A DNA stretch of 64,000 nucleotides from Tropicimonas isoalkanivorans (GTDB taxonomy: Bacteria; Pseudomonadota; Alphaproteobacteria; Rhodobacterales; Rhodobacteraceae), in NCBI RefSeq assembly GCF_900112335.1, contig NZ_FOLG01000012.1, forward strand, positions 62,001 to 126,000, given 5' to 3'. The first letter of the stretch is position 1; each line of letters starts with the position of its first letter. The position numbers were made by a program, and so were the translations under genes. Shown piece by piece: positions 52,513 to 62,506 of the stretch. The notes beneath the pieces were generated by a model. That model was not told the DNA's origin. It worked only from the letters and a program-made list of their open reading frames with translations, and did no database searches.

Positions 52513-54486
52513 ATGACCGCCAAGGGAAAAACCACAGCCGACCAACAGATCGGTGCGATCCCCGCAGATTTTCAGGCCAACGCCCATATAGACGCCGACA
52601 GCTATGAGAAAATGTACGCGCAGTCGGTGCAGGATCCCGAAGCATTCTGGGGGGAGCACGGCAAGCGGATCGACTGGATCAAGCCCTTTACCAAGGTCAA
52701 GGACACGTCCTTCGAGCCTGGCAACATCTCCATCAAGTGGTTCGAGGACGGCACGCTGAACGTCGCGGCCAACTGTATCGACCGGCACCTGGCCAAGCGT
52801 GGCAACCAGACCGCGATCATCTTCGAGCCGGACGACATCCACGAGCCGGCGCAGTACATCACCTACCGACAGTTGCATAACCAGGTGAGCAAGCTCGCCA
52901 ACGTGCTGGAGGACCTCGGCATCCGCAAGGGCGACCGTGTGGTCATCTACCTGCCGATGATCCCCGAGGCGGCCTATGCGATGCTCGCCTGCGCCCGCAT
53001 TGGCGCCATCCATTCCATCGTTTTCGCGGGCTTCTCGCCCGAGGCGCTCGCCGCCCGTGTCAATGGCTGCGATGCGAAGCTTGTCATTACGTCCGACTAC
53101 GCCCCGCGCGGCGGCCGCAAGACGCCGCTGAAGTCGAACACCGATGCGGCGCTGCTGCACTGCATTCACGACCCGAAGGTGCTCATGGTGCGCCGCACCC
53201 GTGAGCAGACCACCTGGGTCGACGGCCGCGACTACGACTACGGCGAACTGATGCTGGAAGCCGACGACCACATGACGCCGGTCGAGATGGACGCGGAAGA
53301 CCCGCTCTTCATCCTCTACACCTCCGGCTCCACGGGTCATCCAAAGGGCGTCGTGCACACCACTGGGGGCTATCTCGTCTTCGCGGCGATGACCCACCAG
53401 TACACGTTCGACTACCACGACGGGGACGTTTTCTGGTGCACCGCGGACGTCGGCTGGGTCACCGGGCACAGCTATATCGTCTATGGCCCCCTCGCCAACG
53501 GCGCGACGACCGTGATGTTCGAAGGCGTTCCCACCTTCCCCGATCCCGGCCGATTCTGGGAAGTGTGCGAAAAGCACAAGGTGAACCAGTTCTATACCGC
53601 CCCGACCGCCATCCGCGCGCTGATGGGGCAGGGCGACGAGTGGATCGAAAAGCACGACCTGAGCTCGCTGAAGCTGCTCGGCTCCGTGGGTGAGCCGATC
53701 AACCCGGAGGCCTGGCACTGGTACAACGAGAAGATCGGCAAGGGGAAATGCCCGATCGTGGACACCTGGTGGCAGACGGAGACCGGTGGCCACCTGATCA
53801 CCCCGCTGCCGGGCGCGATCCCGACAAAGCCAGGCTCCGCAACCAAGCCGTTCTTCGGGGTGCAGCCGGTCGTACTCGACCCGCACTCGGGTCAGGAGAT
53901 CGACGCCACCGAATGCGAGGGTGTCCTCTGCCTCAAGGACAGCTGGCCCGGCCAGATGCGCGGCGTCTGGGACGACCACGGCCGCTTCGAGAAGACGTAT
54001 TTCTCGGACTACAAGGGCTATTACTTCTCGGGTGACGGCTGCCGCCGCGATGCCGACGGCTACTACTGGATCACTGGTCGCGTCGACGATGTCATCAACG
54101 TCTCCGGCCACCGGATGGGCACCGCGGAGGTCGAAAGCGCACTGGTGGCTCACGTGAAGGTCGCCGAGGCCGCGGTCGTCGGCTACCCGCACAAGGTCAA
54201 GGGGCAGGGCATCTACTGCTATGTCACTCTGATGAACGACGTCGAGCCCAGCGACGAGCTTTACAAGGAGCTTCGTCAATGGGTCCGCCACGAGATCGGC
54301 CCCATCGCCACGCCGGATCTGATCCAGTGGGCACCCGGGCTGCCGAAGACACGCTCCGGTAAGATAATGCGCCGCATCTTGCGGAAGATTGCCGAGAACG
54401 ACTACGGGTCCCTTGGAGATACCTCCACCCTCGCCGACCCCTCTGTCGTCGAGGAGTTGATCGAGAACCGCATGAACAAGGGATGA
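52513..54486 (+). CDS. acs: Acetyl-CoA synthetase
   Basis: A 657-residue AMP-forming enzyme turning acetate, ATP and CoA into acetyl-CoA, AMP and PPi. Hallmarks: [13 protein letters not shown] (adenylate P-loop), WWQTETGG, and the C-terminal acetylation-site region [14 protein letters not shown], where Lys acetylation typically switches Acs off. RBS GGGAGGG before ATG 52513. It heads a cluster with adk and a symporter: adk can recycle the AMP made here. Confidence 0.97.
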
Positions 54487-54490
54487 CGTC

Positions 54491-55171
54491 ATGAACGACG
54501 CACAAACCCCGCCCGTCCTGATACTGCTCGGCCCCCCGGGGGCCGGCAAGGGAACCCAGGCCCGTATGCTCGAAGAAAAATTCGGGCTGGTGCAACTGTC
54601 GACCGGAGATCTTCTCCGAGGGGCCGTTGCCGCGGGCACCGAGGCCGGCAAGGCGGCGAAGGCCGTGATGGAGGCCGGGCAGCTTGTCAGCGACGAGATC
54701 GTCATCGCAGTGCTCAAGGATCGCCTGGCAGACCCTGACGTCAAGAATGGCGTCATTCTCGACGGTTTCCCGCGCACAACGGCACAGGCCGGGGCGCTGG
54801 ACGATCTGCTGAAGAAACGCGGACAGAAGATCAATGCCGCGATCAGCCTCGAGGTCGACGACGATGCAATGGTTGAGCGGATTTCCGGTCGGTACACCTG
54901 CGCCAACTGCGGCGAGGGCTATCACGACACGTTCAAGCAGCCGGAAGTTGCCGGCGTCTGCGACAAGTGCGGGGGCACGGAGTTCATTCGCCGCGCCGAC
55001 GATACCGCGGAAACCGTTCGGTCGCGTCTCGTGGCCTACCACGAGCAGACCGCGCCGCTGATCGCGTTCTACCGGGAGCGGGGTCAATTGGTCGAGGTCG
55101 AGGCGATGGGGTCCATCGACGAGATCGCGAGCAGGCTCAACGATATCGTCGAACAGGCCAAGGCGGCCTGA
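54491..55171 (+). CDS. adk: Adenylate kinase
   Basis: A 226-residue long-form adenylate kinase: P-loop GPPGAGKGTQA, DGFPRT, and a zinc-type LID with CANC and CDKC pairs. It interconverts AMP plus ATP and two ADP. It starts 4 bp after the acs stop, so it is co-expressed with the AMP-producing Acs. In many bacteria adk lies in a ribosomal protein operon; this location beside acs is a distinct arrangement, and another adk may exist elsewhere. Confidence 0.95.
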   Translation: MNDAQTPPVLILLGPPGAGKGTQARMLEEKFGLVQLSTGDLLRGAVAAGTEAGKAAKAVMEAGQLVSDEIVIAVLKDRLADPDVKNGVILDGFPRTTAQAGALDDLLKKRGQKINAAISLEVDDDAMVERISGRYTCANCGEGYHDTFKQPEVAGVCDKCGGTEFIRRADDTAETVRSRLVAYHEQTAPLIAFYRERGQLVEVEAMGSIDEIASRLNDIVEQAKAA

Positions 55172-55206
55172 TCGAAAGGCGGGGCAACCGCCACTCGACG
55201 GACAGC

Positions 55207-55221
55207 GGCCCGCAACGGGCC
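55207..55221 (+). terminator. Short hairpin after adk (possible attenuator/weak terminator)
   Basis: Stem GGCCCG-CAA-CGGGCC followed by TGTATATAGGG, 36 bp after the adk stop and 75 bp before the next ATG. There is no clean T-tract. A second GC-rich dyad (CCGCGC / GCGCGG) and a TTTTAAC direct repeat follow (to 55281). It may separate acs-adk expression from the symporter genes. Confidence 0.35.
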
Positions 55222-55295
55222 TGTATATAGGGCCGTTCCGCGCAGGGCGCGCGGAGCGGGGAGGATACTTTTAACTTTTAACTGGGAGGGACCGC

Positions 55296-55535
55296 ATGTC
55301 GGACAAACCTGAAAACAACGCATACTGGGCGGCGAACATTCGTATCGTCACCTGGTGTCTCGTCATCTGGGCCATCGTGCCCTTCGGCTTCGGCATCCTG
55401 TTGGAGCCGATCATGCCGGGTCTGGCCTTTTGGGTGGCCCAGCAGGGCTCCATCCTCGTGTTCCTGGCAATCATCTTTTTCTACGCCTGGCGCATGAACA
55501 GGCTCGACCGCGAATTCGGCGTCGACGAGCAATAA
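55296..55535 (+). CDS. DUF4212 symporter small subunit
   Basis: A 79-residue protein with two membrane helices (about 17-40 and 48-68) and a NAYWAANIRIVTW start. It matches DUF4212, the small partner of the VC_2705-type SSS symporters. It is immediately upstream (15 bp) of the large subunit. RBS GGGAGGG at ATG 55296. Confidence 0.93.
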   Translation: MSDKPENNAYWAANIRIVTWCLVIWAIVPFGFGILLEPIMPGLAFWVAQQGSILVFLAIIFFYAWRMNRLDREFGVDEQ

Positions 55536-55550
55536 AGGGGGCAGGGACAG

Positions 55551-57338
55551 ATGGATCAATTCGTACTCAACTGGATTTTTATCGGTGCGAGCTTCGCGCT
55601 CTACATCGGTATCGCAATCTGGGCCCGGGCGGGCTCGACGTCGGAATTCTATGCCGCCGGCCGGGGCGTTCACCCCGTGCTCAACGGCATGGCAACCGGG
55701 GCCGACTGGATGTCGGCGGCCTCCTTCATCTCCATGGCCGGCCTGATCGCTTTCGTCGGTTATGACAACTCCACCTTCCTCATGGGCTGGACCGGCGGCT
55801 ACGTGCTGCTCGCGCTGATGCTCGCGCCCTACCTGCGGAAGTTCGGTAAGTTCACCGTGCCGGAATTCATCGGCGACCGCTTCTACAGCTCGACCGCGCG
55901 CCTCGTGGCCGTGATCTGCCTGATCGTCGCCTCGATCACCTACGTGATCGGTCAGATGACCGGCGTGGGCGTGGCCTTCGGCCGCTTCCTCGAGGTGGAC
56001 AACACCACCGGCCTGCTGATCGGTGCTGCGGTCGTGTTCGCCTATGCCGTGTTCGGCGGCATGAAGGGCGTGACCTATACGCAGGTTGCGCAATACGTCG
56101 TTCTCATCACCGCCTACACCATTCCGGCGATCTTCATCTCTCTCCAGCTTACGGGCAATCCGATCCCCGCGCTTGGCCTCTTTGGCGACACCGCGGGCAC
56201 CGGGCAGCCGCTGCTGGCCACGCTGGACCAACTCGTCACCGACCTGGGCTTTGCGGAATACACGACCCGCAACAGCGACACCCTGAACATGGTTCTGTTC
56301 ACCCTGTCGCTGATGATCGGGACCGCGGGCCTGCCGCACGTCATCATGCGGTTCTTCACGGTGCCGACCGTTGCGGACGCTCGCTGGTCGGCTGGCTGGG
56401 CGCTGGTGTTCATCGCGCTGCTCTACCTGACGGCTCCGGCCGTGGGTGCCATGGCGCGCTTCAACATCACCAACCAGTTCTGGCCGGATGGCCCTCAGGG
56501 CGAGGCTGTTTCCGTCGAAACGATCGAGACCAGCCCGGAATATGCCTGGATGCAGACTTGGCAGAAGACCGGTCTGCTGAACTGGGAAGACCTGAACGGC
56601 GATGGCAAGATTCAGTACTATAACGATGCCAACGCGGACCTTCAGGCTCGTGCCGAAGAGAGTAGCTGGACGGGCAACGAACTGACGAAGTTCGACCGCG
56701 ACATCCTGGTGCTCGCTAACCCGGAAATCGCCAACCTGCCTGGCTGGGTGGTGGCGCTTGTCGCTGCCGGTGGTCTTGCCGCTGCGCTCTCGACTGCAGC
56801 CGGTCTCCTGCTGGCTATCTCCTCCGCTGTCTCTCACGACCTGATGAAGGGCCAACTGACCCCGAACATGTCTGAAGCGTCGGAGCTGATGTCCGCACGG
56901 ATCGCCATGGCTGTTGCCATCGCCGTCGCCACGTATCTCGGCCTCAACCCGCCGGGCTTCGCGGCCCAAACCGTGGCTCTTGCCTTCGGTATCGCAGCAG
57001 CCTCGATCTTCCCGGCGCTGATGATGGGGATCTTCTCCAAGCGGGTGAACAACACCGGGGCCGTGGCCGGCATGCTGGTGGGTCTGATCGTGACGGTGGT
57101 CTACATCTTCCTGCACAAGGGGTGGTTCTTCATCCCCGACACCAACAGCTACACGGACGCTGCTCCGCTGTTCCTCGGCATCAAGTCGACCTCCTTCGGG
57201 GCCGTCGGGGCGCTGCTGAACTTCGGAACCGCGATCCTGGTTTCCAACGCGACCGCCGCGCCGCCGAAGGAAATCCAGGAGCTGGTCGAAAGCGTCCGCA
57301 TCCCGCGGGGCGCCGGCGCAGCCGCCGCGGATCACTGA
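55551..57338 (+). CDS. SSS-family sodium:solute symporter, VC_2705 type (acetate/organic acid)
   Basis: A 595-residue transporter with about 13 helices of the sodium:solute symporter family, related to ActP. Sodium-site and family parts include GADWMSAASFISMAG, VPEFIGDRFYSST, and GLPHVIMRFFTVPTV; a loop with DLNGDGKIQYY (EF-hand-like) lies outside. In the VC_2705 subfamily the small DUF4212 subunit is required by context. Position after acs-adk makes acetate or a short carboxylate the probable substrate. Confidence 0.93.
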   Translation: MDQFVLNWIFIGASFALYIGIAIWARAGSTSEFYAAGRGVHPVLNGMATGADWMSAASFISMAGLIAFVGYDNSTFLMGWTGGYVLLALMLAPYLRKFGKFTVPEFIGDRFYSSTARLVAVICLIVASITYVIGQMTGVGVAFGRFLEVDNTTGLLIGAAVVFAYAVFGGMKGVTYTQVAQYVVLITAYTIPAIFISLQLTGNPIPALGLFGDTAGTGQPLLATLDQLVTDLGFAEYTTRNSDTLNMVLFTLSLMIGTAGLPHVIMRFFTVPTVADARWSAGWALVFIALLYLTAPAVGAMARFNITNQFWPDGPQGEAVSVETIETSPEYAWMQTWQKTGLLNWEDLNGDGKIQYYNDANADLQARAEESSWTGNELTKFDRDILVLANPEIANLPGWVVALVAAGGLAAALSTAAGLLLAISSAVSHDLMKGQLTPNMSEASELMSARIAMAVAIAVATYLGLNPPGFAAQTVALAFGIAAASIFPALMMGIFSKRVNNTGAVAGMLVGLIVTVVYIFLHKGWFFIPDTNSYTDAAPLFLGIKSTSFGAVGALLNFGTAILVSNATAAPPKEIQELVESVRIPRGAGAAAADH

Positions 57339-57457
57339 TCCCTCGGGTGCGGGCGGGGACCGTGACGGCCCCGCCCGTACCAAATATCGGCGCGTCCCTT
57401 TGCCTAAAGGGGGCGTGCCGCCTCGCAACCTCCGAGACCAAGCGCGATGGTGTGACG

Positions 57458-59299
57458 ATGACTGACGCGACCCTCGACCGAGACTCCCGCATCCTGAGGT
57501 TCATTGAGCACGTCCATCCCTACGACAGCCTCGACCGTGACACTCTGAAACGGATCGCCGAGGCATTCTCCGACCGGACCGTGCCCGCCGGTTCCGAGAT
57601 CTACGCGGCCGGCACGCCGCTTGAAGGGCTCTACCTTATCGAACATGGCACCGTGGAGGTGACCGACGCCAACGGCGCCCCCGTGTCCCTCCTGCGCGGC
57701 CGCAATTCCTTCGGCGAACGGGGGTTGATCCGCGACGGCATTGCGCAAACGACCGCGCGTGCGGCGGAGGAGACCCGGTTGCTGGTTCTTCCCGCCAAGA
57801 CGTTTCGCGACCTCGTCAGGAACGACCGCGCCTTCGCCCGCTTCTTCGAGCGCGGCCGCGCTGCGGCCCGGGAGCGGCAGGGCGATCTGTCCACCCAGCG
57901 TGTCAGCGATCTGATGGCGCGACATCCCATTACGGTAGCGCCAGACACGCCGATCCGGTCGGCCGCCGAAACGATGCGGGACACCCGAGTTTCCTGTCTT
58001 GCCGTGACCGAGTCAGACGAACGCCTCGTCGGTATCGTCACCCTCCGCGACATGGCGACCAAGGCCGTTGCCTCCAGCCTGGCCGGAGAAACGCCGGTGC
58101 GGGAGATCATGACGTCGAATCCGGCCAGCCTGCCGCCCTCCGCGCTCGGCTCCGATCTGCTGCACCTGATGCTGGAGCGGAAGGTCGGCCACGTGACGGT
58201 CGTCGAGGGCGACCGGGTGGTGGGCATCCTGACCCAAACGGACCTGACGCGGTTCCAGGCACTCAGCTCGGCGTCGATGGTGCAGGAAGTTGCCGATGCC
58301 GCGTCTGCGGAAGAGATGGCCCGGGTCACCGCGCGCTTGCCCGCGCTCCTCGCCCAGCTTGTCGGGGCCGGGAACCGGCATGAAGTGGTGACGCGGCTCA
58401 TCACGGACATCGCGGATGCGGTGACACGCCGCCTCCTCGCGCTGGCGGAAGCGGAGCTTGGCGCGCCCCCGGTGGACTATCTCTGGCTTGCTTGCGGCTC
58501 GCAGGGTCGGCAGGAGCAGACCGGGGTGTCCGATCAGGACAACTGCCTCATCATCTCCGACGCGGCCCGGGGCAAGGACGGCGCGTATTTCGAGAGCCTT
58601 GCGCGTTTCGTCTGCGATGGTCTCGCAACCTGCGGCTACTACTACTGCCCCGGAGACATGATGGCGTCCAACCCGCGCTGGCGTCAGCCGCTGGCCGTCT
58701 GGCGGCGGTACTTCCGGGGCTGGATCGACAAGCCGGACCCCGAGGCGCAGATGCTGGCCTCCGTCATGTTCGACCTGCGCCCCATTGGCGGGGCAGCCTA
58801 CCTGCTGGAGGAGCTGAAGGCCGAAACCCTCGCCGCAGCGCGCAAGAACACGATCTTCGTCGGCCACATGATCGTCAACTCGCTGAAGCACACCCCGCCG
58901 CTCGGGCTGTTCCGCGGATTTGCCACGGTGCGCTCGGGCGAACACAAGAACCAACTGGACATGAAGATGAACGGCGTCGTTCCGGTGGTCGATCTCGGGC
59001 GGATCTATGCGCTCCAGGGCGGATTGACGGAGGTGAACACCCGCGCGCGGCTGGAGGCGGCGGAGGCCAACGGCACCATCTCGCGGTCCGGCGGACACGA
59101 CCTTCTGGACGCCTACGACCTGATCGCTGAAACCCGCCTGAAGCAGCAGGCCGAGGAGATCCGCGCGGGTCGCAAACCGGACAACTATATGGCGCCGTCC
59201 GACCTGAGCGACCTGGAGCGCAGCCACTTGCGGGATGCCTTCGTCGTCGTGCGCACGATGCAGTCGGCGCTTGGCCACAACAAGGGGGTGCTCAGTTGA
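57458..59299 (+). CDS. cNMP-binding/CBS/DUF294 nucleotidyltransferase-like protein
   Basis: A 613-residue multidomain regulator. Order: a cyclic-nucleotide-binding domain (about 15-125; PBC region FGERGLIRDGIAQTTARA lacks the usual Arg), a CBS pair (about 150-270; MARHPITVAPDTP and EIMTSNPASLPPSALG), a DUF294 nucleotidyltransferase core with GSQGRQEQTGVSDQDN (intact Gly-Ser and DxD), and DUF294_C. Related to the GlnD/GlnE-type transferases, which modify proteins. It is commonly beside VC_2705 symporters, but its substrate is unproven. ATG 57458; the upstream frame is shadow. Soluble. Confidence 0.92.
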   Translation: MTDATLDRDSRILRFIEHVHPYDSLDRDTLKRIAEAFSDRTVPAGSEIYAAGTPLEGLYLIEHGTVEVTDANGAPVSLLRGRNSFGERGLIRDGIAQTTARAAEETRLLVLPAKTFRDLVRNDRAFARFFERGRAAARERQGDLSTQRVSDLMARHPITVAPDTPIRSAAETMRDTRVSCLAVTESDERLVGIVTLRDMATKAVASSLAGETPVREIMTSNPASLPPSALGSDLLHLMLERKVGHVTVVEGDRVVGILTQTDLTRFQALSSASMVQEVADAASAEEMARVTARLPALLAQLVGAGNRHEVVTRLITDIADAVTRRLLALAEAELGAPPVDYLWLACGSQGRQEQTGVSDQDNCLIISDAARGKDGAYFESLARFVCDGLATCGYYYCPGDMMASNPRWRQPLAVWRRYFRGWIDKPDPEAQMLASVMFDLRPIGGAAYLLEELKAETLAAARKNTIFVGHMIVNSLKHTPPLGLFRGFATVRSGEHKNQLDMKMNGVVPVVDLGRIYALQGGLTEVNTRARLEAAEANGTISRSGGHDLLDAYDLIAETRLKQQAEEIRAGRKPDNYMAPSDLSDLERSHLRDAFVVVRTMQSALGHNKGVLS

Positions 59300-59461
59300 T
59301 GCACTAAACGGCGACGCTGTCGGGGAAGGAGGCCCGGATGGCAGACAATGGCGCGCGGGGGCCGTGTGACGGCCGCCACCACGCCTTGCGTTCGGAGGCG
59401 CCTACATAGACACAGGTGCTGCCGCGTTCCGCGCGGCCGTGCTCATCGCGAGGGAGGAGCG

Positions 59462-59983
59462 ATGTTTTTCGAATTGATTGCCGCGATCGTGGCCGGTGCG
59501 CTGGCTGCCGGTGTCGTCCTTGGCCTCAACAGGCTGACCGGCGGGCGACTGCCCCGTTGGGTGATGCCGGCCGCGGCGGGTGCGGCAATCGTCGCCTATG
59601 CAATCTTCATGGAGTATTCCTGGTACCGACGTACCGTCGACACGCTGCCGGAAAGCCTTGAGGTCACCTTTGCTCACGAAGCCAGGAACGTCTGGCGGCC
59701 ATGGACCTTCGCGCGACCGGTGGTGGATCGTTTCGCCGCCGTCGACCGCGCCGCGATCGCCAACCCGGGCGCGGGCGCCGACCAGCGCCGCGCCGAGTTG
59801 TACCTGTTCGGCCGCTGGACGGCGCCGCACCGGGTGCCCGTCGTCTACGACTGCGGCGCCGGGCGTATGGCGCCGCTGCTTGAAACCGTTCAGATCGACG
59901 AAAACGGCGTCGTCACGCAGGCGGACTGGGAGCCCGTGCCCGCAGACGACCCCACCCTTTCCATCGTTTGTAAGGAGGCTTGA
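59462..59983 (+). CDS. Small membrane-anchored protein of unknown function
   Basis: A 173-residue protein with two N-terminal hydrophobic segments (about 4-23 and 35-50) and a soluble C-terminal domain starting near residue 58 (TVDTLPESLEVTFAHEAR) with VYDCGAGRMAPL. No family is recognised. RBS GGGAGGAG at ATG 59462. Its stop is 5 bp before the ATG of the response regulator, so it belongs to that operon. Confidence 0.75.
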   Translation: MFFELIAAIVAGALAAGVVLGLNRLTGGRLPRWVMPAAAGAAIVAYAIFMEYSWYRRTVDTLPESLEVTFAHEARNVWRPWTFARPVVDRFAAVDRAAIANPGAGADQRRAELYLFGRWTAPHRVPVVYDCGAGRMAPLLETVQIDENGVVTQADWEPVPADDPTLSIVCKEA

Positions 59984-59988
59984 GCATC

Positions 59989-60390
59989 ATGGCCACGGAC
60001 CATCCTGCCCGCGTTCTGATCGTCGAGGACGAGGATAACATCGCTCTGGCGCTAGGCCACGTGCTCAAGCGAGAAGGGTTTGAGGTCAGTCGCGTTGTCG
60101 ATGGCGAGACGGGACTGCAGGCGATCCGCGACGAACGGCCCGATCTGGTATTGCTCGACGTCATGCTACCGGGCATGTCTGGGTACGAGGTCTGCCAGAA
60201 CGTGCGGCTGGAACCGGAGCTATCGGGCGTGAAGATCCTTATCATGACCGCACGCGGCAAGGCGATGGAGCGGCGCAAGGGGCTGGCACTGGGCGCCGAC
60301 GGTTTCATCGCCAAACCGTTCGACCTGTCGGAACTGCTGCAGCGGACCCGCGCACTTTTGAAGGGCGAGGCGGAATCGAGCGATGCATGA
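59989..60390 (+). CDS. Single-domain response regulator (receiver)
   Basis: A 133-residue receiver: acidic residues in VEDEDNIAL, phospho-acceptor Asp57 (LVLLDVMLPG), Thr in LIMTARG and Lys in FIAKPFD. All are canonical, so it can be phosphorylated. No DNA-binding output domain. RBS AAGGAGG at ATG 59989; an upstream in-frame TTG is less likely. It overlaps the next gene by 8 bp (ATG 60383), which marks them as functional partners. Confidence 0.92.
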   Translation: MATDHPARVLIVEDEDNIALALGHVLKREGFEVSRVVDGETGLQAIRDERPDLVLLDVMLPGMSGYEVCQNVRLEPELSGVKILIMTARGKAMERRKGLALGADGFIAKPFDLSELLQRTRALLKGEAESSDA

Positions 60391-62506
60391 CTGGTTGGCA
60401 CGGCGGTTGAACCTGCGTCTCAGGGTCTTCCTGTTCTTTGCCATGGTGGCCCTCGGCGGGCTCGCATCAGTCGGCCTCGGCCTTTGGCTGGGGTATCGGC
60501 GCGTGGAGGAGGCAGGACTTGGGTCCGGTTTCGTGCTGGCCGGGCTGATTTCCGGGGCCGGTATCCTCGCGCTCGTTGTCTGGGTCTGGATGCTGTTCGA
60601 CGAGAACGTGGCGAAGGCGATCCAGAAGCTCGCCGGCGGCATCCGGGCGCGCGCCCATGCCGACGTCGCGGGGGAGCTCGACCACGAATCCGCGCGCTAC
60701 CTCGGTGATCTGGCGCCGGCGGCCAAGGCCATCACTGGCACACTGGCCGAGACCAAGAACGCGCTGGCCGAGGCGGTGGAACGGGAGACCACGCGGCTCG
60801 CGGTGGAGAATGCCCGCCTGCAGTCACTGTTGGCCGACGTGCCTGCGGGCGTTCTGCTGTGTTCGCCCGATCACCAGATTGTCTTCTACAATGCCCATGC
60901 GCAGGAACTTCTGTCGGGAGAGGTTTCGGCCGGGTTGGATCGGTCGATCCTGGACTATATCCGCGCCGGACCGTTGCAGAACGCGTATGCGCGCCTGACC
61001 CAGAGCGAGGACGTGGACGCGGCCTGTTCCGTGCTCTGTGCGTCCACCCAGACCGGCGAGGTGCTGGCCGGGCGCATGCGTCTGGTCAACCTGCCGCAAC
61101 GGAGCGCGGAGGCGGCGGGCTATGTGCTCACCCTGCGCGACGTGACAGCCGATCTGGCGCTCCGGGCGGGGCGGGAAGAGCTGCTGGACGAGATCTTCGA
61201 CAAGGTGCGCCGGCCTGCCGCCAACTTGCAGACGGTGCTGGACTCCGGCGTTGCCGATCAGGACGCGGCGACGCGCAAGGCGCTGCTGGTCGAGGCGGCC
61301 GCGCTGACCCATGCGATTACGGACCTCGGCTCCCGCTACGACGACGCCCGCGGTGGGTGGTGGCCGATGGAGGAGATCCGGGCGAGCGAACTGGTGGAAA
61401 GCGTTGTCGCAGTGACGGCCCGCGAGGGGATCACCCTGATCGCGGAGGCGGAGCGGCTGATGTTGCGCTGCGATGCCTTTCAGATCGTGGCGTTACTGTC
61501 GCATCTATGCGGTCGGCTGGTGGAGGTCATCGGAGCCGCGGCCCTGTCGCTCAGGATCGCGGATGACGGCGAGGGAGGCGCGCTGGTGACGCTCGGCTGG
61601 AAGGGAGATGTCTTGCAGGTCGGGTTGCTGGAGGGATGGCTTGATGTTGCGCTGGAGGTCGGGCTGGCGAACGTGACCGGGCGCACTGTTCTGGCCGCCC
61701 ACGGGACCGAGGCCTGGCCGGAGCCGGGCGCGGTGGGGCGGAACCTGATCCGCCTGCCCCTACGAGAGGCCTGGCCCGTTGGCACCCCCGCTCCCGCAGT
61801 CCGCCGCTCCGCGGTCTACGATTTCGACCTGATGGATCGGGAGCCCTCGGGAGAGCTTGCGATGACGCCTCTGCGGGAGCTGACCTGCGTGGTGTTCGAC
61901 ACCGAGACGACCGGGCTACTTCCGTCTTCGGGGGACGAGATCGTCCAGATCGCGGCGCTGCGGCTGCTGGGGGGCAAGCGCATTCATGGGGAAGCCTTCG
62001 AGAGCCTCGTGAACCCGGGGCGGCCGATCCCGGCAGTCGCCACGGAGGTCCATCACATCACCAACGAAATGGTTGCCGGCGCCCCCGACATCGGCACTGT
62101 CGGACGCCGTTTCCACGCCTTTGCCCAGGGGTCTGTGCTCGTCGCGCACAACGCGCCCTTCGACCTGGAGTTCCTGAGGCGGCGCGAGGCGGAGATTGGC
62201 AAGAGCTTCGATCATCCGGTGCTCGACACGGTGCTCCTGTCGGCGGTGGTGTTCGGCCAGTCGGAGGTGCACACGCTCGACGCCCTGACCGAGCGGCTCG
62301 GCATCACGATCCCCCCGGAGGCGCGGCACACGGCGATGGGGGATACAATCGCCACGGCGGCGGCGCTTGAGAAGATGATCCCGATGCTGGAGGGGCGCGG
62401 GTACCGCACGTTTGGCGAGGTGATCGCGGCCGTGCGGCAACACGGACGCCTGCTGAAAGACGTCAACAGCCCCGAACATGTCTCGCCAGTGAAGGCCGCA
62501 ACGTAG
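60383..62506 (+). CDS. Membrane pseudo-histidine-kinase/PAS fused to DEDDh 3'-5' exonuclease
   Basis: A 707-residue protein. Two membrane helices (about 15-37, 47-70) are followed by a linker, a PAS domain (about 146-260), a DHp-like helix pair (about 262-320) in which the H-box His is replaced (IFDKVRRPAAN, Asp near 272), and an ATPase-like region lacking a clear N-box Asn (VALLSHLCGRLVE). The C-terminus (about 495-680) is a DnaQ-type exonuclease with all DEDDh residues: VFDTETTG, HNAPFDLEF and HTAMGDT. So the kinase half looks dead and the nuclease half active. Starts inside the receiver gene. Known from related genomes as '3'-5' exonuclease' beside VC_2705 symporters; function is not established. 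Confidence 0.9.
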   Translation: MHDWLARRLNLRLRVFLFFAMVALGGLASVGLGLWLGYRRVEEAGLGSGFVLAGLISGAGILALVVWVWMLFDENVAKAIQKLAGGIRARAHADVAGELDHESARYLGDLAPAAKAITGTLAETKNALAEAVERETTRLAVENARLQSLLADVPAGVLLCSPDHQIVFYNAHAQELLSGEVSAGLDRSILDYIRAGPLQNAYARLTQSEDVDAACSVLCASTQTGEVLAGRMRLVNLPQRSAEAAGYVLTLRDVTADLALRAGREELLDEIFDKVRRPAANLQTVLDSGVADQDAATRKALLVEAAALTHAITDLGSRYDDARGGWWPMEEIRASELVESVVAVTAREGITLIAEAERLMLRCDAFQIVALLSHLCGRLVEVIGAAALSLRIADDGEGGALVTLGWKGDVLQVGLLEGWLDVALEVGLANVTGRTVLAAHGTEAWPEPGAVGRNLIRLPLREAWPVGTPAPAVRRSAVYDFDLMDREPSGELAMTPLRELTCVVFDTETTGLLPSSGDEIVQIAALRLLGGKRIHGEAFESLVNPGRPIPAVATEVHHITNEMVAGAPDIGTVGRRFHAFAQGSVLVAHNAPFDLEFLRRREAEIGKSFDHPVLDTVLLSAVVFGQSEVHTLDALTERLGITIPPEARHTAMGDTIATAAALEKMIPMLEGRGYRTFGEVIAAVRQHGRLLKDVNSPEHVSPVKAAT

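Follow-up and report, generated by a model that had tools for sequence, protein, structure and literature searches.

A DEDDh exonuclease fused to a pseudo-histidine kinase accompanies a DUF294 protein and a receiver in a conserved acetate locus of Tropicimonas isoalkanivorans

This study concerns a stretch of 64,000 nucleotides from Tropicimonas isoalkanivorans (Rhodobacteraceae; contig NZ_FOLG01000012.1 of assembly GCF_900112335.1, positions 62,001 to 126,000), referred to as the window, in which an acetate locus of eight genes runs from acs to a gene for a fusion of a pseudo-histidine kinase with a DEDDh exonuclease. The results demonstrated that this exonuclease is a near-constant partner of a DUF294 protein, and sequence comparisons indicate that the kinase-derived half of the fusion is coupled to a stand-alone receiver; these are the solid points of the analysis. 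The DUF294 protein and the exonuclease very probably act in one process, whereas the chances that they oppose each other are about even. The features on which the argument rests are as follows.

57452-59299, forward strand: cyclic-nucleotide (cNMP)-binding/CBS-CBS/DUF294/DUF294_C protein, candidate nucleotidyltransferase ('writer') (PF00027, PF00571 twice, PF03445, PF10335)
59989-60390, forward strand: stand-alone receiver with canonical phosphorylation site D57 (PF00072, 3.8e-28)
60383-62506, forward strand: TM2-PAS-pseudo-histidine-kinase-DEDDh exonuclease fusion (Pfam PAS and RNase_T; structural model and alignment)
61145-61354, forward strand: DHp-like hairpin of the fusion, amino acids (aa) 255-324, with Asp273 at the phospho-His position and the motif RRPAANLQT
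61868-62452, forward strand: DEDDh exonuclease domain of the fusion, aa 496-690 (PF00929, 2.1e-33; PolC/epsilon exonuclease structures)

The phylum was surveyed with PF10335 in 249 genomes, of which 108 had a match and 100 a match over the cut-off. The best locus of each of 40 non-alphaproteobacterial genera (E < 1e-30) was fetched, and its open reading frames (ORFs) were scored with a hidden Markov model (HMM) of the exonuclease. All 40 loci were positive, and in 34 of them the two ORFs lay on the same strand and either overlapped or were separated by at most 250 bp. A second, hand-picked set (8 alphaproteobacterial loci and 12 extra copies) gave 19 positives out of 20, L296 with just 20 bits. 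Overall, an exonuclease was present within 5 kb in 59 of the 60 loci fetched by DUF294, and the same HMM had no match in 31 control loci (178 kb); two RNase_T domains were found in the window genome itself. In five loci both proteins are encoded on one frame, as exonuclease-CBS-CBS-DUF294 by Pfam (L223:5495-7612 and L225:6998-9136) or as exonuclease-DUF294 by HMM/BLAST (L285:3267-5399, L287:3198-5657 and L288:4974-7088). Among 14 Rhodobacterales genomes common to the two surveys, eight had strong matches to both the exonuclease and DUF294_C and six to neither, with weak DUF294_C matches (5.8e-4 and 1.7e-5) in two of the six. DUF294 is annotated as a putative nucleotidyltransferase for which no reported substrate was found in the open-licence literature, and its near-obligate exonuclease partner points to a make/remove pair.

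Both partners have the characteristic residues of their families. The window protein combines PF03445 and PF10335 with the GS..DxD motif of DUF294 nucleotidyltransferases; GS..DQD (catalytic G, S, D, D) and a further Asp were invariant in 39 of 39 aligned sequences, and a fixed pattern recovered the catalytic motif in 36/39, 31/31 and 94/96 members of larger sets. The exonuclease domain scored 116.6 bits against a PF00929 cut-off of 24 and has D506, E508, D594, H649 and D654; these DEDHD residues were present in 120 of 121 aligned rows, the remaining row being cut by a contig end. In sequence it is nearest to PolC/epsilon exonucleases, and a Foldseek search with the model of the fusion matched PolC, epsilon, RNase T, TREX1 and ExoX exonucleases. 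Its assignment as DnaQ (DNA polymerase III epsilon) was rejected, as TIGR01406 gave 101.5 bits against an equivalog cut-off of 222.7. At two loci (L212:1483-3003 and L214:9640-11148), the exonuclease frame is preceded in frame by a many-helix membrane part, presumably EamA-like, which may be a fusion or a frame effect.

The model of the fusion protein (mean pLDDT 82) consists of two long N-terminal helices, predicted to be a membrane anchor, a PAS domain, a helical hairpin, an alpha/beta domain and the exonuclease. Pfam gave no match to the kinase half of the window protein. However, Foldseek matched the kinases WalK, YF1 and ThkA (E from 2e-14 to 1e-9, with low TM-scores, as the match covers one domain set of a multi-domain model), NCBIfam WalK matched residues 118-286 far under its cut-off, and the relative L266 matched PF00512 HisKA at E 0.0024, also under the family cut-off; these matches argue for a kinase ancestry of this half. 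In the hairpin (residues 254-324 of the model, pLDDT about 63-74), position 273, which is His in HisKA, is occupied by Asp (FDKVRRP against SHELRTP). The equivalent residue in 98 long forms was Asp in 51, Glu in 34, Ala in 3, Arg and Ser in 2 each, and Gly, Val, Asn, Thr, His and a gap in 1 each, i.e. acidic in 85 and His in 1. Narrow regular expressions for the N, G1 and G2 boxes matched none of the 98 long forms. The window protein therefore lacks the phospho-His and, by pattern, the ATP-binding boxes of a functional histidine kinase, and a kinase-like fold with a replaced phospho-His beside a receiver with an intact site identifies it as a pseudo-histidine kinase. The initial annotation, which had noted the Asp and an 8-bp overlap of the receiver and exonuclease ORFs and had excluded a normal kinase, was borne out by the ORFs and the alignment. 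The sole long form with His, L043:9598-12082, has a receiver without the acidic pair and the Lys.

The exonuclease occurs in three forms: about 700 aa with a receiver, about 670 aa without, and about 470 aa (TM-PAS-exonuclease, no kinase half) without. Among 135 exonuclease proteins, which include near-copies, three pairs of identical rows among them, 82 were long with a receiver, 10 long without an adjacent receiver, 43 short without a receiver and none short with one. In these counts L120, whose exonuclease frame was called too long, is receiver-bearing, although it is outside the set of 73 receivers described below, and the receiver matches of L039 and L040 were discarded as belonging to other, distant proteins. 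The 10 receiver-less long forms are nine members of one clade and L201. On a tree that excludes L030, L034 and L036 (contig ends) and includes six short forms of other families hand-chosen among those fetched, the length label changes at least seven times, but only three independent pairs lie on well-supported branches. As judged from sequence, the receiver and the kinase half thus go together, as had been proposed, in an association that is consistent rather than statistically proven. The window receiver has E13, D14, D57, T87 and K109, and D57 and K109 were each present in 71 of 73 relatives.

Regional identities were compared between receiver-less long forms (27 pairs, all from one clade of nine) and receiver-bearing ones (400 pairs drawn from 914), matched on exonuclease identity (0.77 and 0.76). 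Helix 1 of the DHp-like hairpin was 0.354 identical in the receiver-less and 0.693 in the receiver-bearing group, and the whole hairpin 0.382 and 0.526. In contrast, the values for the PAS domain were 0.661 and 0.659, for the CA-like part 0.517 and 0.463, and for the membrane head 0.723 and 0.540. Helix 1 was also clearly diverged beside the degenerate receivers of L043 and L123 (0.04-0.28; group background 0.44-0.68). A relaxation of helix 1 once the receiver is lost is the pattern expected of a docking surface losing its partner. These observations suggest that the hairpin is the docking site and that the receiver probably docks on the pseudokinase. A close known case is Caulobacter DivL, described in the sections of PMC4211667 drawn on here as related to histidine kinases and bearing PAS, but devoid of the phospho-His and of kinase and phosphatase activities; it binds a phosphorylated receiver via a docking interface. 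As with DivL and DivK, a canonical receiver here goes with a DHp domain lacking His. Unlike DivL, which has Tyr at that position and keeps the N, G1, F and G2 boxes (PMC4211667), the present proteins have Asp or Glu and no N/G1/G2 box by pattern, and their output is a fused DEDDh exonuclease.

A candidate donor of phosphate to the receiver was found elsewhere in the genome, which extends the initial annotation. Besides the window symporter, a PF00474 search of the genome recovered one further place (C20), where a ScfR-type regulator, a stand-alone receiver and a 900-aa SSS-HisKA-HATPase protein with SHELRTP stand in a row (L128:2071-7031); this trio is likely a carbon-acid sensor system, and its receiver is 39% identical to that of the window. 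An SSS-domain histidine kinase is also part of CrbS/CrbR (MxtR/ErdR), a system tied to acetate/pyruvate use. Unlike in CrbS/CrbR, where the partner is of the LuxR type, the neighbours of the kinase are a receiver without an output domain and a ScfR-type regulator, and in several lineages the receiver and kinase sit beside the exonuclease. In one genome (G006), locus L126 runs from acs through DUF485, ActP, CBS-DUF294, SSS kinase and receiver to the exonuclease, with 4-bp overlaps among the last three genes. The 385 genomes of other alphaproteobacterial families yielded 11 long forms (E ≤ 1e-45), 10 with an adjacent receiver (weak in L204, 49 bits). An SSS gene of the kinase type adjoins the exonuclease at 8 of these 11 loci; the kinase half with SHELRTP or THELRTP was confirmed in seven, whereas L200 runs into the end of its contig. 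Among loci of other classes, the long form with a receiver occurs in L253, L260, L262 and L266, three of which (L253, L262 and L266) also have the SSS kinase. This recurrent neighbourhood, which like the anatomy, the conservation, the DUF294-exonuclease pairing and the coupling of receiver and pseudokinase half is read directly from the sequences, shows that kinase, receiver and exonuclease are a travelling module. In a receiver tree, receivers beside both the exonuclease and an SSS kinase grouped with the C20 receivers (92/84); with few columns, long branches and no outgroup, the tree was not used as proof of common operon descent. The SSS kinase is a reasonably probable phosphodonor of the receiver.

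Genetic data are available for relatives in Pseudomonas, as described in the parts of the published reports drawn on here. In P. putida KT2440, pp_0354 (CBS protein) and pp_0353 (RNase_T) form an operon (PMC9927547) that is a target of the SSS-kinase system MxtR/ErdR (PMC9927547, PMC8402216). The P. fluorescens protein Pflu5625 is described as cAMP-binding with CBS and nucleotidyltransferase domains (PMC5715377), from which pp_0354 may be taken to carry DUF294. The P. aeruginosa homologues lie beside actP/yjcH (PMC9927547), and PA3232-PA3235 are up about 16-fold on propionate (PMC9765439). On pyruvate, the pp_0353 and actP-I mutants were impaired and the pp_0354 mutant was not, the mxtR and erdR mutants being impaired too; transposon fitness data cited in the same report assign a role on 5 mM acetate to pp_0353 as well as to actP-I (PMC9927547). 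If loss of a writer is silent and loss of an eraser equals loss of the target, the predicted pattern matches these mutants, which leads to a model in which DUF294 turns uptake down and the exonuclease turns it up. The published mutants thus already show the asymmetry predicted by a make/remove pair, and the P. putida genetics fit an eraser that keeps the transporter on. The Pseudomonas genes and the PA3232-PA3235 cluster resemble the present locus in combining a CBS protein with an RNase_T exonuclease (PMC9927547, PMC9765439). They differ from it in that the sections of the two reports considered mention no membrane anchor, PAS, pseudokinase or receiver (PMC9927547, PMC8402216), and an add/remove scheme is not proposed in sections 7-8 of PMC9927547.

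Based on these results, the locus may work as described below. The SSS-histidine kinase encoded elsewhere in the window genome would phosphorylate the receiver, which would dock on the DHp-like bundle of the membrane-anchored dead histidine kinase, like DivK~P on DivL, and docking would switch the fused DEDDh exonuclease. The DUF294 protein, under cNMP/CBS control, would place a nucleotide on the monocarboxylate symporter, on its small subunit or on a factor required by the symporter and so bring uptake down, and the exonuclease would cut the phosphodiester and bring uptake back on. The receiver-pseudokinase part would let a carbon-source kinase set the balance of writer and eraser. GlnD is a uridylyl-transferase/removing enzyme with a second, hydrolytic activity and sensor domains. 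The present pair resembles GlnD in combining a candidate nucleotidyltransferase, a putative GlnD-type substrate domain, sensors and a paired, predicted hydrolytic activity, sometimes on one chain (L223, L225). It is unlike GlnD in that Pfam found no HD family in the window DUF294 protein and the hydrolytic partner is a DEDDh exonuclease, which would here take the place of the HD domain in a GlnD-like add/remove pair. We infer the direction of signalling, the chemistry, the target and the kinase. That a phospho-receiver gates the exonuclease via a DivL-like pseudokinase, and that the exonuclease opposes DUF294, is taken as a whole an evenly balanced proposal. The modified target may be a protein, to which we give slightly less than even credence. 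Only tentatively do we propose the complete scheme, a reversible nucleotide modification in which DUF294 tags the monocarboxylate transporter or its small subunit, the DEDDh enzyme is the remover and, in many bacteria, the remover is a receiver-gated two-component output. The receiver-pseudokinase-exonuclease arrangement would extend two-component systems to an output other than transcription or a usual signalling enzyme. If true, the scheme would to our knowledge be the first case of a protein tag erased by a nuclease fold and of a nuclease gated by a receiver.

Several observations weigh against this scheme. On 20 mM acetate, the growth of P. putida was unaffected by deletion of either pp_0353 or pp_0354 (PMC9927547), and a P. 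fluorescens mutant of the DUF294 gene had no phenotype (PMC5715377), although the latter is also expected of a silent writer. An SSS or ActP gene was present in the fetched stretch of 26 of the 40 non-alphaproteobacterial pairs and absent from that of the other 14, which together with the pyruvate phenotype in P. putida indicates that the pair is broader than acetate uptake. Of the writer/eraser pair for acetate uptake that had been suggested, the association of the two proteins stands; the nucleotide transfer by DUF294, its reversal by the exonuclease and acetate as the signal are putative. Most non-alphaproteobacterial exonucleases are about 200-260 aa, so that the receiver and the kinase half are an add-on to the pair. 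One DUF294 locus, L289, has no exonuclease, and at three more (L286, L297 and L299) the exonuclease lies less than 5 kb away without being adjacent. A DUF294 profile had no credible relative among PDB sequences, and this route to a structural relative was dropped. In the open-licence literature, no biochemistry was found for the DUF294 enzyme or the exonuclease, nor any paper on DUF294 with an exonuclease and acetate, on a nucleotidyltransferase, an exonuclease, a CBS domain and actP, or on a STAC domain with a response regulator and an exonuclease. As regards the docking, a sign test on the three well-supported receiver-loss pairs was not significant, the independent events being few; the receiver-less group in the identity comparison is a single clade of nine; helix 1 beside a third degenerate receiver, L113, was not clearly diverged (0.36-0.44 with L129, L014 and L059); and the long form L201 retains an intact docking motif although the 14 kb fetched contain no receiver. 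As regards the donor, 79 of 80 Rhodobacterales genomes carry the SSS kinase irrespective of the receiver, and at all 30 loci sampled the kinase adjoins a receiver of its own; the kinase thus does not single out the window receiver, and the idea that it is missing where the receiver is missing was rejected for want of discrimination. In the window genome it is unlinked to the exonuclease and has a receiver of its own.

Other explanations were also weighed. One that we consider somewhat unlikely is that DUF294 extends the 3' end of an RNA (messenger, small or transfer RNA) and the exonuclease trims it, thereby controlling the expression or translation of acs or the symporter instead of transporter activity. 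RNA 3' ends are substrates of DEDDh exonucleases such as RNase T, and the structural matches to RNase T, TREX1, ExoX and PolC-type exonucleases suit this reading. An exonuclease acting positively on RNA or on a messenger could also give the same growth data, and the authors of PMC9927547 speculate on mRNA decay, with no discussion of nucleotidylation in its sections 7-8. However, Pfam groups DUF294_C with the GlnD substrate domain in one clan, of GlnD/GlnE type (PMC3710099), and the phenotype of the exonuclease mutant is that of losing one transporter (PMC9927547).

Concerning the receiver, it is unlikely that the pseudokinase half does not read it and that it is a co-transcribed phosphate sink for the SSS kinase. 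The identity with the C20 receiver beside that kinase and the motif kept in L201 without a nearby receiver would agree with a sink, whereas the lack of an adjacent receiver in all 43 short forms and the relaxation of helix 1, seen in the clade that lacks receivers and beside two of the three decayed ones, argue for docking. For the pair itself, the DUF294 protein might instead be a Pol-beta-type enzyme with cNMP and CBS sensors that makes a small nucleotide, and the exonuclease might destroy this second messenger in the manner of an oligoribonuclease. Pol-beta-fold enzymes do include signal synthases and DEDDh enzymes oligoribonucleases, and near-obligate pairing suits a make/break pair; since the putative GlnD-type C-terminal domain points to a protein substrate (PMC3710099), we regard a second messenger as improbable. 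Finally, a generic or DNA-repair nuclease that lies beside acetate genes for expression reasons and is merely placed at the membrane by the receiver-pseudokinase part would explain the nearest sequences (PolC/epsilon), but is very improbable given the near-constant and sometimes one-frame linkage to DUF294, the score far under the DnaQ cut-off, the predicted two-helix membrane anchor and the carbon-source phenotype of the P. putida relative (PMC9927547).

The remaining genes complete the eight-gene set from acs through the exonuclease fusion, which Pfam and NCBIfam confirmed.

52513-54486, forward strand: acs, acetate--CoA ligase (TIGR02188, 1019 bits; PF00501/PF13193/PF16177)
54491-55171, forward strand: adk, adenylate kinase (PF00406, PRK00279)
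55296-55535, forward strand: DUF4212, symporter small subunit (PF13937, TIGR03647)
55551-57338, forward strand: SSS symporter, VC_2705 family (TIGR03648, 823 bits)
59462-59983, forward strand: small membrane protein, 173 aa, with two helices, a mostly beta domain and two invariant Cys

The intergenic gaps are 4 bp (acs-adk), 124 bp (adk-DUF4212), 15 bp (DUF4212-SSS), 113 bp (SSS-DUF294), 162 bp (DUF294-membrane protein), 5 bp (membrane protein-receiver) and -8 bp (receiver-exonuclease). Candidate sigma-70 promoters and terminators were discarded because nothing rose above shuffled sequences. Adk could recycle the adenosine monophosphate made by Acs. In DUF4212, Y10 and Y63 were conserved in more than 90% of 90 sequences.

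A whole-protein search with the fusion returned 42 loci, 41 of which (L003-L043) carry the fusion protein; the 42nd, L044, is a 1458-aa frame of Lachnospiraceae that matches the exonuclease part alone. In 40 of the 41, many of which are cut by contig ends, the exonuclease has further genes of the block as neighbours; the exception, L030, is a contig of 3.1 kb that carries nothing but the exonuclease. At E ≤ 1e-30, 142 of the 244 genomes of the order had a match to the fusion protein. A further conservation sample comprised 29 loci and 59 fetched regions, nine of which duplicated the same places and were dropped (L045, L054, L055, L058, L067-L069, L072 and L073). The recurring order is acs-(adk)-DUF4212-SSS-DUF294-membrane protein-(receiver)-exonuclease; adk is absent in some, and many stretches end before acs. 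In Paracoccus denitrificans PD1222, the locus lies on plasmid 1 (PDEN_RS22665-22695) without adk. The survey of gene order called for at the outset thus demonstrated that the gene set is conserved and not local.

The small membrane protein had no Pfam or NCBIfam family above chance. Its AlphaFold2 model is confident (pLDDT 94.6), and a structure search with it gave no PDB match below 1e-3, so that no fold identity was assigned. Relatives of this protein also lie beside DUF4212-SSS genes outside the Alphaproteobacteria (L242, L296 and L298).

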